59,596 bases of DNA from Syntrophomonas sp. DTU019 (GTDB lineage Bacteria; Bacillota; Syntrophomonadia; Syntrophomonadales; Syntrophomonadaceae), in contig LFSQ01000011.1 in assembly GCA_001512785.1 (NCBI GenBank), forward strand, positions 1 to 59,596, read 5' to 3'. Within the stretch, counting starts at the first letter, position 1; every line of letters begins with the position of its first letter. Below are positions 4,792 to 11,207 of this stretch, piece after piece. Both the position numbers and the translations under genes were made by a program. The notes under the pieces are model-generated. The model was not told where the DNA came from. It ran no database searches and saw only the letters and a program-made list of their open reading frames with translations.

Positions 4792-6108
4792 TTACTCTCC
4801 GTTATAATCATGATTTAGCACCGCATCGATAAGGGCCTGGGCCTCTACCGGCACCACCTTGATATCAGCCCCCGATGCTTTTATTATATCTTCCACTGAG
4901 ATATCGTCCAACAACAGCTCTTCACCGGCTTTGAGCACAATCTCCGGGAGCAGCACCTTTTGCCCCTGGTATTTGTGCCCTAAGGCCTGGATAATATCCT
5001 GCCCGGTCAACAGGCCGGTCACAGTTATGCTTTCGCCCCAGAAGCGATTGGCTACCGGTATGAGCTGTACCGAAACCCCGGCAACCTGGTTTAAGCGCTC
5101 GACTATGGGCTGTAAGGCAATAGATCCCGAAATCCCGGTGATGATATGCGTCTTATGTGGGGCAAGCGCATCCGGCAAGGCTTTTTCCGCCTGAGCAAAT
5201 TCGTCCCACAACAGCCGCACCAGTCCGATCCCGTTTTCCACTTGTTCAAAACCATCATAGTAACTGCTGTCAGGTATGCTTTGACCGGCTTTGAGATAAA
5301 ACTCGTCCGCCAGGTATACCAGCCCCAACCCATGCTGGTCACGGTAGCTTTTTTGATACGCGTCGACCAGCGTGATCAGGCTGTTGGACTGTTCGGGGGT
5401 TACAGCGTGAAGCTCCGGCAACCCCTGGCGGTATTGGGTTAATCCCACCGGAACGATGCCTATTGACTGCACACTGGGATAAAACCCGGCCAGCTGTTCT
5501 ATAGTCTCCTTTAGCACCTCTCCGTCATTGATACCCGGACACAATACGATTTGGGTATGAATTTCTATGCCGGCATTATACAGGCGCTCCATATCCTGCC
5601 TGATGTTAACCGCATTTTTGTTTTTCAACAATCTGGCTCGTACCTCAGGCCGCATGGCATGTACGGAGATATACAGCGGGCTCAGCCGCATGGACAGGAT
5701 CTTGTCCCAATCCGGCCTTTTCAAATTGGTCAGGGTGATATAATTGCCAAACAGAAAGGAGTGCCGGTAATCATCGTCTTTTATTTTCAGAGTAGGGCGC
5801 ATGCCGTCAGGGAGTTGATCGACAAAGCAAAACAGGCAGCGATTCCTGCAAGTCTTCATCTGGTCGAAGATAAAACCGTCCAGAATCAATCCCAGGTCTT
5901 CATCGTCTTCTTTTTCCACCTCGACCAGCCAGGTTTCACCATGGGGCTTGTTGATTTGCATGCGCAGGAAAACATCCTGTGCCATAAAGCGATAATCGAG
6001 AATATCGCATATATCCCTGCCATTTATGGAGCATAATACATCACCGGCCGCAATGCCTATATCTTCGGCTATACTGCCCGGGATCACTGCTTGAATGGGC
6101 GCTGCCAC
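4792..6108 (-). CDS. DUF512 family radical SAM protein with N-terminal PDZ-like domain
   Basis: The 438-residue protein belongs to the DUF512 family found beside der in many anaerobic Firmicutes. Residues 1-70 form a PDZ-like domain (PGSIAEDIGIAAGD). Residues 87-94 hold the radical SAM cluster motif C-x3-C-x2-C (CRNRCLFC), and the C-terminal half is the DUF512 region. Its substrate and reaction are unknown. A GTG start with GGGAGG eight bases upstream is clear. The PDZ-like domain could bring it to a partner or membrane site, but that is inference. Confidence 0.88.
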   Translation of the reverse strand: MAAPIQAVIPGSIAEDIGIAAGDVLCSINGRDICDILDYRFMAQDVFLRMQINKPHGETWLVEVEKEDDEDLGLILDGFIFDQMKTCRNRCLFCFVDQLPDGMRPTLKIKDDDYRHSFLFGNYITLTNLKRPDWDKILSMRLSPLYISVHAMRPEVRARLLKNKNAVNIRQDMERLYNAGIEIHTQIVLCPGINDGEVLKETIEQLAGFYPSVQSIGIVPVGLTQYRQGLPELHAVTPEQSNSLITLVDAYQKSYRDQHGLGLVYLADEFYLKAGQSIPDSSYYDGFEQVENGIGLVRLLWDEFAQAEKALPDALAPHKTHIITGISGSIALQPIVERLNQVAGVSVQLIPVANRFWGESITVTGLLTGQDIIQALGHKYQGQKVLLPEIVLKAGEELLLDDISVEDIIKASGADIKVVPVEAQALIDAVLNHDYNGE

Positions 6109-6198: not shown

Positions 6199-6648
6199 TT
6201 ATTGCCGGGCAAAACTGAGTTCAGCCTTAAAGGCCAGGGTTTCTTTTTCTATGTGTTCATATTGCTTTCTGGCCAGGTAATGCGCGGCCAGGTTTAAGAG
6301 GTACCGGCCTCCCAGTCAGGGCGGCAGGTAACTCAGCACATAAAGCCACAGATTGCCGGGGACCGATACCGCTCTGGCAATTAAATCCCTTTCGCCAAAA
6401 CCGAACAAGTCGCGAAAACCGGCGATGATGGCAGGAGCCAATTCGTGATTTGGCCCGGCCCCAAAGGTATAAACCTTTACCCCCTCAGCCGTTTGACCGA
6501 CATACAAAAGCTCCCCTTTTGAATCCAGTCTTATATCACCATAATGCTCAATAAAGCGGTAATCGTTGCTATGAAGATTGCCCATAAAAATATGGGCGGC
6601 TATAAGTGCATGATGCACCCCGGTAGGGCCCACAAATATCACATGCAA
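6199..6648 (-). pseudogene. DUF3189 family gene interrupted by an in-frame TGA
   Basis: This is the second of two tandem DUF3189 genes. A TTG at 6648 with AGGTG six bases upstream starts a frame of 110 codons that stops at TGA (6316-6318). The same frame then continues for 38 sense codons (LGGRYLLNLAAHYLARKQYE and onward) to TAA at 6199-6201. The rejoined product is about 149 residues, against 151 for the neighbouring paralogue at 6663-7118. The TGA aligns with an Arg in the paralogue's RRLGW, so a single CGA-to-TGA change is the simplest explanation. The N-terminal HVIFVGPTGVHHALIAAH matches the paralogue's start. The short form may still be made. Alternatives are a sequencing error or UGA recoding. 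Confidence 0.75.
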
Positions 6649-6662
6649 TGCTTTCACCTGCT

Positions 6663-7118
6663 TTATTGTGAGGTTTTGAGCCGGGTGATCTCTACCAGAT
6701 TGCAAATGCTGCCAAAAGCCCCTCTGGTGCCGAGAAGCAGAAGGGGACGCCCGATGGCTGTCCAGCCCAAACGCCTGGAAATAAAGCCGCCCATGGCCAT
6801 CAAGAGATTGACCCTGCTCATACAGTTTACTGCCATGACCTCATGCTCCACCCCCAGTAAACCGGCCACACCCATAAGCATGGCACTGCACCTCTCGCCC
6901 ATGCCTTTTTTGCCCAGTATATAAATGTCATGGCCTGATTCATCGGTCCCCATATAATGGATGCGGCCAAAATCGCTGTCCTGGGTTTTATCAAAGTAAG
7001 GCAGATGTATCAAGTCAAGCGGGTCGGGCAAGCGGGTTGGGTCGAGCCATTTAAGATGCAGGGCTGCAGCCACAACTGATGAATGTGACCCCCCATAGCA
7101 GTGATAAATAACCTTCAT
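6663..7118 (-). CDS. DUF3189 family protein
   Basis: The 151-residue protein belongs to DUF3189, a family of unknown function found in spore-forming clostridia. It opens with a beta strand and glycine-rich turn, IYHCYGGSHSSVVAAALH, that resembles a nucleotide- or phosphate-binding loop, and has a second glycine-containing stretch, ILGKKGMGERCSAM. A good AAGGAG site precedes the ATG. It lies after the YIEGIA pair and 14 bases before its broken paralogue. Function is unknown; the setting suggests sporulation or envelope work. Confidence 0.8.
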   Translation of the reverse strand: MKVIYHCYGGSHSSVVAAALHLKWLDPTRLPDPLDLIHLPYFDKTQDSDFGRIHYMGTDESGHDIYILGKKGMGERCSAMLMGVAGLLGVEHEVMAVNCMSRVNLLMAMGGFISRRLGWTAIGRPLLLLGTRGAFGSICNLVEITRLKTSQ

Positions 7119-7133
7119 ATAAGCTCCTTAACC

Positions 7134-7328
7134 TCAGTGTTTGCAAATGATAAAAACCCCGTTTTCCAGGTCGTGAACATTGCCTCCCAGAATCCTGGCC
7201 AGCATTAAGACCAGGCGCTTCTGTTGCCCGCTTTCATTAGCCACGAAAACCGGGCATCCACAGCCCTGCACCAGACCGGGATCCTGGGTGACAATGGCCA
7301 ATATATACTCCTTTACCGTGATTTCCAC
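7134..7328 (-). CDS. Small partner protein of YIEGIA (capping complex subunit type)
   Basis: This 64-residue protein matches the small family annotated as the capping complex subunit for YIEGIA proteins. It has VKEYILAIVTQDPG and a GCGCPVFVA segment, and no membrane helix or signal peptide. It begins with GTG one base after the YIEGIA stop, so the two are almost certainly translated together and may form a complex. Biochemical function is unknown. I recognise the pairing with the neighbour more firmly than the sequence alone. Confidence 0.75.
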   Translation of the reverse strand: MEITVKEYILAIVTQDPGLVQGCGCPVFVANESGQQKRLVLMLARILGGNVHDLENGVFIICKH

Positions 7329-7329
7329 T

Positions 7330-8220
7330 TTAATCTGCTGCCTTTCTGCCCCAATAGCTTTTCAGGGTAGAGCTGCGGGCCGACTCCAATACCGGCACCC
7401 TTTTAATCATCTCCATCAGCACATCCATATCAGGTTCATTGGGCACTATGAACAACGCCAGATATCCCTTGTCAGCATGCATGCGCGCCATAGGGAGCAA
7501 TTCTGTTTCACCGATATCCACTTTAGCCCCCAAAATCGAGGTTACATCATGGATAATGGCCATACGCTGTCCCGGGCTCTGCAGGGTCAAGCGGCCTTCA
7601 TCATCAAAGGGATGGATTAGAACTGCCAGGGCTTCTGACATGATTTTATCCCGGGCGGCTTTTAAGCCCACATTCATCATCGGCACATCGGCCACTTTTA
7701 ACAGGGCGCCGTCAAAAGAGACCTCTGCCGGTTCTATCGAAGCTATCTCGCCAATGGTTGACCCGCTCATCAATTTAGTTGTCCCGTATATCATCAACGG
7801 GCCGGCCACCAGGGCCAGCTGCCATCCCCATAAATGAGCCACCCCTGCTGTCACCAAGGCGGTCAATATCACCAGATAATTGCGCATTTCAAATACACGG
7901 GCAATGCCTTCAATATAGTCATGACCCCGGGTTATCAGCTTGTGCTCTTCCAGGCTGGACAGGGTCTTGCGCTCCATATCCCTGATTTCCCGGAATTGCT
8001 GCGCTGCCAGGGCCAGAAAAGTGACGGCTACCCAATCGGGTTCAGTAATCGCAGGTATGGCCACCGCACCCAGGCTGGCGGCAATAAAACCCAAGGCCAG
8101 ATGGGTTATATGACCGTGGGGATAAGTTGGATAATGGCGGTAATCATAGCGCAGTAATACCCAGCGGTTGATAAAACCGGCTACGATGCCCGCCAAAATA
8201 ACTGTTCCATAACTTTGCAT
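7330..8220 (-). CDS. YIEGIA family membrane protein
   Basis: The 296-residue protein carries the eponymous YIEGIA motif at residues 102-107. Its N-terminal half has several hydrophobic segments (about 5-22, 38-60, 62-75 and 113-150), and the C-terminal 150 residues form a soluble domain. The family is conserved in endospore-forming Firmicutes and has no established biochemical role. The ATG overlaps the spoIIP stop as TGATG, and the small YIEGIA partner follows one base after its own stop, so spoIIP, YIEGIA and partner are translationally coupled. A role with SpoIIP at the engulfing membrane is inference. Confidence 0.85.
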   Translation of the reverse strand: MQSYGTVILAGIVAGFINRWVLLRYDYRHYPTYPHGHITHLALGFIAASLGAVAIPAITEPDWVAVTFLALAAQQFREIRDMERKTLSSLEEHKLITRGHDYIEGIARVFEMRNYLVILTALVTAGVAHLWGWQLALVAGPLMIYGTTKLMSGSTIGEIASIEPAEVSFDGALLKVADVPMMNVGLKAARDKIMSEALAVLIHPFDDEGRLTLQSPGQRMAIIHDVTSILGAKVDIGETELLPMARMHADKGYLALFIVPNEPDMDVLMEMIKRVPVLESARSSTLKSYWGRKAAD

Positions 8221-9281
8221 CAGCGACCGGCACTGCTTTTATTTAATAAATAGAAGCCCGCTCCGGCTGCTACAGCAACGGTGAGAAGGATCAAAATCGT
8301 GGTCCAGGCCGAGGGGGAATCCTGCTGCAGGGGTTTGGCCCCTGCTGCCCCGGCGCTGTCAGTGCTCCCCCCCAGGGTGGCAGCCAGCACATCGGCAAAA
8401 GCGACCGCCCCTTGCGCAGCATCATCTTTGGGATTGGTGTGTGATCCGACCTCAATCAGCATAGCCCGCGGGGTGAGATCCTGATTAAAATCGCCCTTGC
8501 CCATGAATATCCCATTGGAAAGCCCGGGCTTGGTCTTGTCCATCATTGCTTTGAGCTGTTTGGCAAAATCCAGATTGGTTTTTGCGTTAGGGTTGGTTCT
8601 TCCCACCACCAGTTTTATCTTGGTAGCTTCCTGTCCATTAATTGTGGTCTGGTATTGGCCGGGCGGCACCGCGTCACGGTGCACATCGATCAATACCTGT
8701 GCGCCATTCTTCAGCAATGAAGCCGCAGTGCGCCTGGAGCGGTTATAAGCATTGACGTCATGGGGATTGTGGTTGTTTTTGTTATATTCCACCGTGTAGC
8801 CCAGCTCTTGCAGGCGCTGGGCCAGGGCCTGACCTACATCATAAATGCCGCCATTGCCCGGTTTGCTCTCCTTGCCGTCAGTAGGCACATAAGACTCGTC
8901 ACTATGGGTGTGATATATGGCTATAGTGGGTTTGGCGGCTGCCACCGGGATCTCCTGGCTGTCTACTACCCAGGCCTGGCGCTGCTGGTCAAAGTTGACC
9001 TGCGGCATCTGCTCTTTGCCCACAAACACGCAGCGCGCGGTATGACCTGAAACCTCCACCACCTGGTATCTGCCGTTATCGCTGCTGATGTATTCGTCAC
9101 CAACATATACCTGGGCCCCAGTCTGGGTGATAATATTATTGTTTTCGTCTACCAAAGAGAAATAGTAGCCTGACGGCAACTCCTCATAAACGGCTTCAGC
9201 CTCACCTGCCAGGACGAAACTCAATCCCGCCATCAGGCTGACAGCCAGCAAAAAGGCTATGGTTTTTCTATGCACCTTCAT
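8220..9281 (-). CDS. spoIIP: Stage II sporulation protein P (SpoIIP-like peptidoglycan hydrolase)
   Basis: SpoIIP is a septal peptidoglycan amidase and endopeptidase that works with SpoIID and SpoIIM during forespore engulfment. The 353-residue protein has an N-terminal signal or anchor segment and the catalytic-domain motif AIYHTHSDESYVP, whose His and Glu belong to the zinc site of this family. DVHRDAVPPG carries a further His, and the C-terminal transmembrane helix is TTILILLTVAVAAGAGFYLL. I prefer the ATG at 9281, with AGGAG seven bases upstream, to the in-frame GTG at 9284. It overlaps the DUF1614 gene by 14 bases. A C-terminal helix is unusual for the best-known members. Confidence 0.85.
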   Translation of the reverse strand: MKVHRKTIAFLLAVSLMAGLSFVLAGEAEAVYEELPSGYYFSLVDENNNIITQTGAQVYVGDEYISSDNGRYQVVEVSGHTARCVFVGKEQMPQVNFDQQRQAWVVDSQEIPVAAAKPTIAIYHTHSDESYVPTDGKESKPGNGGIYDVGQALAQRLQELGYTVEYNKNNHNPHDVNAYNRSRRTAASLLKNGAQVLIDVHRDAVPPGQYQTTINGQEATKIKLVVGRTNPNAKTNLDFAKQLKAMMDKTKPGLSNGIFMGKGDFNQDLTPRAMLIEVGSHTNPKDDAAQGAVAFADVLAATLGGSTDSAGAAGAKPLQQDSPSAWTTILILLTVAVAAGAGFYLLNKSSAGR

Positions 9282-10092
9282 CACCTCGCTCCTGCGACTC
9301 CCTCATTCCGGTGATTTCCATGCGCTCTTCCCAATCCCTGAACCCTTCCGGGTCAGGTTCATCATCTTTATCATGGGCAGTGTAATCAGCCTGCATGCTG
9401 TCCTGGTCCGGTTTACGGGCCGGGGCCGGCTCTTTGAGGTTTTCCACCAACCTGGGGTCTTTGTCTTCACTGCTCGGTCCTCCAGCCATGCGCTCCAGGC
9501 TCTCGCCCACCAGCTCAGCCAGCAGAATAGCCAGTATACCGGCTAAAACCAGGGAGTCAAAGGCCCCGGCTCCGCCTAAATGAACGGTTCCCCGCACCCC
9601 GCTCTGCAGCAAGTAAACCAGTTGACCGATGTCTAAGGCCAGGACCGCCATTACTGCCGCAAAGAAGGCCCCGCGCCGTGATCTGCCCGCCAGGTAGCCA
9701 ACTATGCCGGCTATTAAAGGATAAAGGTAGATCGGGTCAATAAAAACGTTTTCCGGCTCGGCCCCCAGAAAACGAGCCCCAATGAATAGCACCAAAGCAG
9801 TGACCACAGCAGCGATGGCCGAGCGCATTTTTTCAAACGCAGTCCCGGCTCCCAGCCACAACCACACTGCCAGGCCTACCGTAATCACCCCGCCCACATT
9901 GATGATCAGGCGGTCGCTTACCGGGATATCGATGAAGCTGCCGATAATGATGGCCGCTATCACCGCCAAAGCCGCCCGGTCAGTTAGCCGTAAACGGTCT
10001 AAGGCCCGCTGGGCTACACCAAAATAGATGAGAATCGATATCACCACCAGGGCAATTAGACCAAAGGGGAAATTGGCCATTTTGTGCCACAT
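9268..10092 (-). CDS. DUF1614 family membrane protein
   Basis: The 274-residue integral membrane protein matches the DUF1614 family: about seven or eight hydrophobic helices up to residue 205, with the conserved GGVITVGLA and HLGGAGAFDSLVLAGILAILLAE stretches. A hydrophilic, charged tail of about 65 residues follows and is probably cytoplasmic. The function of the family is unknown. It lies immediately before and overlaps spoIIP. The start is uncertain: the ATG at 10092 has AAGG directly against it, and the ATG four codons later is spaced better. Confidence 0.8.
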   Translation of the reverse strand: MWHKMANFPFGLIALVVISILIYFGVAQRALDRLRLTDRAALAVIAAIIIGSFIDIPVSDRLIINVGGVITVGLAVWLWLGAGTAFEKMRSAIAAVVTALVLFIGARFLGAEPENVFIDPIYLYPLIAGIVGYLAGRSRRGAFFAAVMAVLALDIGQLVYLLQSGVRGTVHLGGAGAFDSLVLAGILAILLAELVGESLERMAGGPSSEDKDPRLVENLKEPAPARKPDQDSMQADYTAHDKDDEPDPEGFRDWEERMEITGMRESQERGDEGA

Positions 10093-10160
10093 CCTTTCTC
10101 AGTCTTATGGCAATAGATTTCCCCACATAGTTGTTTTTATGTAAAGAGGAGCGGTAATGG

Positions 10161-11207
10161 TTAGCGGCGGGACCAAAGATCGCAATCGATATGGCGGGCT
10201 TCAAGCCAGGCCCGGGTGTGACCCAGAATTATCAAGGGCTTTTCATGAATTGCGGCAAGATCGGGGGAAGAAGTCATCAAGAATATGGCTTTGAGCCGAT
10301 AAAGCCATTGTTCCATAAAAGTTGACAGCGAATCTGACCCTTTTTGTACATAGTGTTTTACCAGAGGGCCTGCCATTCCTACCAGGGCAGCCCCCATGCA
10401 CAGGGCTTTGGCAGCATCCACAGCGGTCCTGATACCACCGGAAGCGATTATTTTTACCGGAAGCCCCAGTGCAACGATTTCCGCCAGGCTGACCGCAGTA
10501 GGCAAGCCCCAGCAGTCCAGTTCATGGTCAAAACAACCCTGGCGCAGATTCTCGATAACTATAAAATTGGTGCCGCCCTGACCACCGGTGTCAAATAGCC
10601 TTACCCCGGCTTCATAAAGCTGCTTCACGCTTTCCCTGGATAAACCGAAGCCTACCTCCTTGGCAATAACCGGTACCGGCGACAGGGCTGCAATCCGGGC
10701 GATATTGTCCAGCATGCCGCTAAAATGCCTCTCACCTTCGCGCATAGCCAGTTCCTGCGGCACATTGAGGTGAAGCTGCAGAGCATCTGCGGCGATCATC
10801 TCCACTGCCTGCAGAGCCTCCTCCGGCCTGGCCAGAGCGCTTATATTGGCAAGTATGATCCCGTCTGGATTGACTTCCCTGACCACTGTAAAAGTAGGCT
10901 TTCTCTTTCGATCGGTTACTGCTATGGACTGGGACCCCACTGCCATTGCCAGTCCAAAATCACGGGCCAGAAGGGCTAAAGCCCGGTTGATTTCTTTGGA
11001 CATTTCAGTACCACCAGTGATGGCATTGATAAGCAGTGGGTATTGCAGCGGCTTGCCCAGGAAATCCTGGCTCAAATCGATGCTGTCAAAATCCAGTTCA
11101 GGCACGGCATGATGCAGCAAATACACATCATCAAAACCATTCTTGCCCGGTCCATCCTGGCAGAGGCAACTTATCTGGATATGCTCGTCTTTGCGCCTGG
11201 CCCTAAT
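10161..11207 (-). CDS. fni: Type 2 isopentenyl-diphosphate isomerase, probable AUU start
   Basis: Fni is the FMN- and NAD(P)H-dependent enzyme that interconverts isopentenyl and dimethylallyl diphosphate. The first ordinary start in the frame is GTG at 11126, but the 27 codons upstream encode RRKDEHI and more, the conserved N-terminus that binds substrate and flavin in this family. The open stretch between the preceding in-frame TAA and that GTG has no ATG, GTG or TTG. ATT at 11207-11205 lies eight bases after GGAGG and gives 348 residues, the usual length. Motifs include NAITGGT, AVGSQSIA, TGGQGGTN and IIASGGIRT. It begins just past the mobA stop. Confidence 0.9.
   Translation of the reverse strand: MRARRKDEHIQISCLCQDGPGKNGFDDVYLLHHAVPELDFDSIDLSQDFLGKPLQYPLLINAITGGTEMSKEINRALALLARDFGLAMAVGSQSIAVTDRKRKPTFTVVREVNPDGIILANISALARPEEALQAVEMIAADALQLHLNVPQELAMREGERHFSGMLDNIARIAALSPVPVIAKEVGFGLSRESVKQLYEAGVRLFDTGGQGGTNFIVIENLRQGCFDHELDCWGLPTAVSLAEIVALGLPVKIIASGGIRTAVDAAKALCMGAALVGMAGPLVKHYVQKGSDSLSTFMEQWLYRLKAIFLMTSSPDLAAIHEKPLIILGHTRAWLEARHIDCDLWSRR

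Follow-up and report, generated by a model that had tools for sequence, protein, structure and literature searches.

Gene content and limits of the operon

The window considered in the present study, a 59,596-nucleotide (nt) stretch of DNA from Syntrophomonas sp. DTU019 (contig LFSQ01000011.1 of GenBank assembly GCA_001512785.1), carries on its minus strand a compact set of six genes built around a second form of the peptidoglycan amidase SpoIIP. In the direction of transcription, the set starts with DUF1614, a multi-pass membrane protein (9268..10092; PF07758, 26.6 bits against a Pfam cut-off of 23.9), followed by the SpoIIP paralogue (8220..9284, with the likely ATG start at 9281), the YIEGIA membrane protein of the Bacillus subtilis YphB family (7330..8220; PF14045, 380 bits) and, beside it, a small partner of 64 amino acids (7134..7328; PF21835, 68 bits), for which Pfam supplies the name YIEGIA_cap (cap below). 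Two DUF3189 genes complete the set: the first copy (6663..7118; PF11385, 172 bits) and a second, diverged copy (6199..6657), which contains an in-frame TGA (6318-6316) and is a candidate selenoprotein or readthrough gene. DUF1614, YIEGIA, cap, and DUF3189 are all without an NCBIfam model. The original prediction gave the genes, their order, and the strand correctly, but it counted five genes instead of the six obtained with the second DUF3189 (6657-6199), and its start at 6199 silently crossed the TGA, which went unreported.

The genes are tightly packed, with the junctions that had been predicted. DUF1614 and SpoIIP overlap by 14 bases from ATG 9281 (17 from GTG 9284), SpoIIP and YIEGIA are joined by TGATG, and a single base separates YIEGIA from cap. 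The DUF1614-SpoIIP junction was overlapping or ≤20 nt in 98 of 102, the SpoIIP-YIEGIA junction in 71/96, and the YIEGIA-cap junction in 78/104. Because these tight junctions recur across loci, the packing goes beyond chance. At the same time, the outer junctions are loose: that between fni and DUF1614 was tight in 0/41 loci (median gap, 131 nt), and that between DUF3189 and the DUF512 gene was tight in 11/75 (median gap, 84 nt). The unit from DUF1614 to DUF3189 is a genuine operon, flanked by gaps, and both boundary genes, fni (type 2 isopentenyl-diphosphate isomerase; 10161..11126, minus strand; TIGR02151) and the PDZ/radical SAM/DUF512 gene (4792..6108, minus strand; then der, plsY, gpsA, and spoIVA), lie outside it. 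The gene order cmk, plsC, ispH-S1, (fni), DUF1614, SpoIIP, (YIEGIA, cap), one or two copies of DUF3189, DUF512, der, plsY, gpsA, spoIVA was mapped in 40 phylum loci and 80 named ones and is kept in many families.

A sigma-F-type promoter motif on the minus strand (10114..10141; CATA, a 14-nt spacer, and GGGAAATCTA) ends 21 nt upstream of DUF1614. Since a scan with strict textbook sigma-factor patterns gave no match, not even at the spoIVA control, the motif was taken from the upstream alignment and then tested. In the Syntrophomonadaceae alignment upstream of DUF1614, TACATAA, 14-15 nt, and GGGAAANNTA are conserved, which fits the B. subtilis sigma-F consensus (GYATA, ~15 nt, GGNRANAHTR); sigma-F is the early forespore sigma factor. 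The motif was found upstream of DUF1614 in 29/103 loci, where 2.0 would be expected, while SpoIIP, YIEGIA, cap, and DUF3189 are each preceded by it 0 or 1 time; the same motif search detected no internal promoter motif between the operon genes, and a sigma-70 scan gave matches at chance numbers only. The motif before DUF1614 also fits the sigma-F regulation reported for B. subtilis yphB (PMC12017682). As a separate observation, locus L015, which is without DUF1614 and SpoIIP, has a sigma-F-like motif (GCATA, 15 nt, GGGGATTAT) before YIEGIA, upstream of 4045.

The anchored SpoIIP paralogue and its association with DUF1614

The window SpoIIP matches PF07454 at 202 bits (cut-off, 24.4) and TIGR02867 at 177 bits (cut-off, 123.15); a PDB sequence search with it gave no match. 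The layout of the operon protein consists of an N-terminal hydrophobic signal, the amidase domain, a C-terminal transmembrane segment, and a short tail. The amidase motifs HxH..E, DxHRD, and the late glutamate are intact in the window copy (HTH 125, DVHRD 200, and E278), with DxHRD present in 106/106 operon copies, so that an active amidase is expected.

A C-terminal transmembrane segment behind the amidase domain was detected in the window copy and in 105 of 106 operon SpoIIPs, compared with 0/22 of those encoded elsewhere; the sole operon protein without a detected segment is masked by N. In a tree of 65 sequences, all 43 operon copies and two extra Syntrophomonad copies fall on one side and 20 copies encoded elsewhere on the other, the dividing branch having a length of 1.6 and a Shimodaira-Hasegawa-like approximate likelihood ratio (SH-aLRT) value of 100. 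The window copy thus differs from canonical SpoIIP both in carrying the C-terminal segment and in lying outside the canonical clade, and, judged by sequence, the operon SpoIIP is an ancient, distinct paralogue of the canonical protein. Other SpoIIP copies were also seen. A third SpoIIP occurs in Syntrophomonads (L002 1477-2454 in the window genome, C102, and L143 633-1586 in G015); it belongs to the operon clade and has lost the C-terminal membrane segment. Two Desulfotomaculum-like genomes have an extra operon-type SpoIIP ahead of DUF1614 (L065 3441-4823 and L070 3468-4799).

The distribution of the paralogue's neighbor was followed in 149 genomes of the phylum, with SpoIVA, present in 131 and absent from 18, serving as the marker of spore-formers. 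DUF1614 was present in 111/113 genomes with at least two SpoIIPs and in 1/19 with one (Fisher p 5e-19). A second full-length type of DUF1614 (profile 1-171) was noted in 23 genomes of the phylum, either on a separate contig or at a distance from the operon (e.g., G103 C41:7786-8280).

DUF1614 can be linked through intermediate sequences to B. subtilis YphA (PF24124). For the window DUF1614, no match to the Pfam YphA family was listed, and comparing the profiles of three YphA-like proteins directly with DUF1614 gave no significant result; the link is therefore claimed solely via two intermediates. At locus L117, the protein in the DUF1614 position fits both the DUF1614 profile constructed in this study (E 6e-20, hhalign 98%) and the YphA family of Pfam (36.7 bits; cut-off, 28); the DUF1614 of L042 gives a weak YphA match of 23.6 bits.

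Distribution and separable parts

All four families of the operon other than SpoIIP, that is, DUF1614, YIEGIA, cap, and DUF3189, are nearly confined to spore-formers. DUF3189 was found in 98/131 genomes with SpoIVA and in 0/18 without it, DUF1614 in 112/131 and 1/18 (a weak match), YIEGIA in 70/131 and 1/18, and SpoIIP itself in 131/131 and 1/18; equal presence in non-spore-formers, which would have spoken against the original prediction, was therefore not seen. The lone SpoIVA-negative genome with YIEGIA also carries SpoIIP, so SpoIVA is probably just absent from the assembly. The p values of the association, 8e-5 to 2e-21, are optimistic since the genomes are related, but its direction is clear. 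Extra samplings centered on the L117 and L095 genomes covered the same phylum again and added YIEGIA counts only.

Within this set, the operon consists of three separable parts and is not one fixed machine. DUF3189 tracks DUF1614 in spore-formers (97/112 with DUF1614 against 1/19 without), YIEGIA and cap are present in exactly the same 71 genomes, and YIEGIA shows next to no dependence on DUF3189 among spore-formers (p 0.07). The predicted fixed-ratio complex of five or six parts has in its favor the tight packing, the one promoter motif, and the order conserved in many families. Against it, YIEGIA and cap are missing from 41 spore-former genomes that do hold DUF1614, DUF3189, and a second SpoIIP, and stand-alone YIEGIA-cap pairs exist. 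Moreover, in the congener G156 (L126 5960-8100), YIEGIA, cap, and both DUF3189 genes have decayed through many frame changes and stops, whereas DUF1614 (85% identity), SpoIIP (79% identity), and spoIVA have stayed intact. A single complex of this kind is accordingly considered very unlikely. Apparent frameshifts in YIEGIA and DUF3189 of another congener, G155, were discounted, the breaks being runs of N.

The separate gain and loss of parts would suit unrelated forespore genes that share one sigma-F promoter, and hence only their timing, with products that make no contact. The near-perfect pairing of DUF1614 with the second SpoIIP and of YIEGIA with cap, together with the overlapping coding ends, exceeds what timing would need, and we regard this explanation as improbable, if less so than the single complex.

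YIEGIA and cap are an inseparable pair of their own, separate from DUF1614-SpoIIP. Second, stand-alone copies of the pair, distant from der and spoIVA, occur at L013 4662-5996, L023 3943-5024, and L038 4792-6117. The AlphaFold model of YIEGIA (predicted local distance difference test, pLDDT, 88) has helices at the N-terminus followed by an alpha/beta domain; its fold search against the PDB gave no significant match, and the PDB sequence search no match.

DUF3189 had been described as nucleotide-binding-looking, an impression that found no support: the first copy (6663-7118) has no Walker A motif GxxxxGK[ST], and its confident alpha/beta model (pLDDT 95) matched no PDB fold at E <0.001, the best being an arginine phosphatase (E 0.2; template modeling, TM, score 0.36). 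The low-molecular-weight phosphatase-like matches were left unused as weak (TM ~0.36). In three loci, two DUF3189 copies are fused in one long frame (L005 6315-7280, L021 6087-6986, and L024 6928-7908).

The in-frame TGA of the second DUF3189 (minus strand) recurs as the same codon in the congener UBA4922 (L044 8574-9030), with 25 identical bases around it, and is replaced by TGT (Cys) in another congener (L125 6616-6994). For the 34 codons past the TGA, the nonsynonymous (dN) and synonymous (dS) rates between both TGA genomes are 0.16 and 1.51, against 0.14 and 0.90 ahead of it, and the frame beyond the TGA is under selection. The window genome contains tRNA-Sec (Rfam, 74.4 bits; ARAGORN tRNA-SeC (tca)), and selenocysteine formate dehydrogenases are reported in Syntrophomonas wolfei (PMC3582634). 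The recurrence of the TGA in one congener, its Cys counterpart in another, the selected frame behind it, and the tRNA-Sec together make the second DUF3189 a selenoprotein candidate. Bacterial selenoproteins with Sec/Cys exchange show the same TGA/Cys alignment, tRNA-Sec, and frame kept past the TGA; the second DUF3189 differs from them in that no selenocysteine insertion sequence (SECIS) was recognized after the TGA (no Rfam match; fold z-scores of -1.37 and -0.65) and that homologues outside the genus have no Cys there. TGA is an ordinary stop in the neighboring genes. About half of our confidence goes to selenocysteine, the remainder being split equally between near-cognate readthrough of a weak UGA-C context and early gene decay.

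Proposed function and relation to known systems

The finding is best described as sporulation-specific and partly known: a probable forespore operon with a new SpoIIP variant at its core. Computation supplied the operon limits, the promoter motif, the restriction to spore-formers, the clade and topology of the paralogue, its intact amidase motifs, and the co-occurrences; forespore expression, timing, substrate, and physical partnership are what we infer in the following scheme, to which we give an even chance. Sigma-F would transcribe the operon in the forespore from the single promoter ahead of DUF1614; the second SpoIIP amidase would form the core, held in the forespore membrane by its C-terminal anchor, with multi-pass DUF1614, the putative YphA counterpart, as its partner. 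Acting from within the forespore side, the anchored SpoIIP would most likely trim peptidoglycan of the septum or of engulfment, alongside the usual SpoIID-SpoIIM-SpoIIP (DMP) complex. DUF3189 may be a cytosolic accessory accompanying the DUF1614-SpoIIP part, and YIEGIA with its small partner would be a separate spore-membrane pair carried in the same operon. The envelope theme of the original prediction is retained. A joint version, in which the C-anchored SpoIIP and DUF1614/YphA act on septal peptidoglycan as a forespore engulfment hydrolase apart from DMP and the second DUF3189 of the genus is a selenoprotein, is proposed tentatively.

The operon could also serve later, as a spore-envelope module whose anchored SpoIIP acts after engulfment on the germ-cell wall, the cortex boundary, or germination peptidoglycan, with YIEGIA and cap serving the spore inner membrane. 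In B. cereus, YIEGIA has been listed among the spore inner-membrane proteins (PMC8624511); in B. pumilus, it was the membrane protein most depleted in spores by pulsed light; and canonical SpoIIP is also present, so that engulfment needs no second one. However, the motif before DUF1614, GG(N)(R)AA, resembles that of sigma-F and not that of sigma-G, and yphB is reported under sigma-F; we find a late role rather unlikely, although less so than shared timing alone.

Several points weigh against the forespore engulfment scheme as preferred here. B. subtilis yphB is reported to be dispensable for sporulation and germination, and the examined Bacilli-type loci are without the C-anchored SpoIIP paralogue; the operon is therefore not universally needed. 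The promoter motif was derived from Syntrophomonadaceae, and only ~12 of its 29 matches lie outside that family. The SpoIIP tree is of a quick type, without bootstrap, the Fisher tests treat genomes as independent despite common ancestry, and the window organism is itself a putative spore-former.

Present understanding of engulfment comes mostly from a single amidase complex. If the forespore engulfment scheme is true, the widespread second SpoIIP and its membrane partner would account for the presence of more than one SpoIIP in most sampled spore-formers of the phylum. The operon would give the unstudied DUF1614, YphA, YIEGIA, and DUF3189 a common place and time, the YphA-DUF1614 link would open part of the system to study in B. 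subtilis, and the candidate selenocysteine, if real, would put selenium to an uncommon use in sporulation.

The locus had been predicted to be an undescribed system, which holds in part. The neighborhood DUF1614 (arCOG02159/COG4089)-SpoIIP-YIEGIA, with the same three families adjacent, was reported by Makarova et al. in 2015, who proposed a membrane-remodelling complex (PMC5898192). The part of that article considered here mentions neither the small partner nor DUF3189, and it likewise has no C-anchored clade, co-occurrence of the neighborhood with a second SpoIIP, promoter motif, or YphA link. In the literature searched, DUF3189 and DUF1614 returned no papers, and we found there no description of the anchored SpoIIP paralogue, of how it pairs with DUF1614, of the promoter, or of the YphA link, which is not proof of absence.

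In Bacilli, the yphA-yphB region occupies the same chromosomal place and contains YIEGIA and cap, with YphA linked to DUF1614; the order at the Bacilli-type locus L016 is fni, YphA, YIEGIA, cap, der, gpsA, spoIVA. This order and the YphA link point to the yphA-yphB region of B. subtilis as a probable reduced counterpart of the operon; L016 differs from it in having neither SpoIIP nor DUF3189, and the tie between YphA and DUF1614 passes through L117 and L042. The DMP complex likewise employs a SpoIIP-family peptidoglycan amidase in spore-formers. The operon SpoIIP was not seen adjoining spoIID or spoIIM; it differs from the DMP protein in forming a separate clade, in its C-terminal anchor, and in its association with DUF1614, and the genomes that encode it nearly always hold another SpoIIP.

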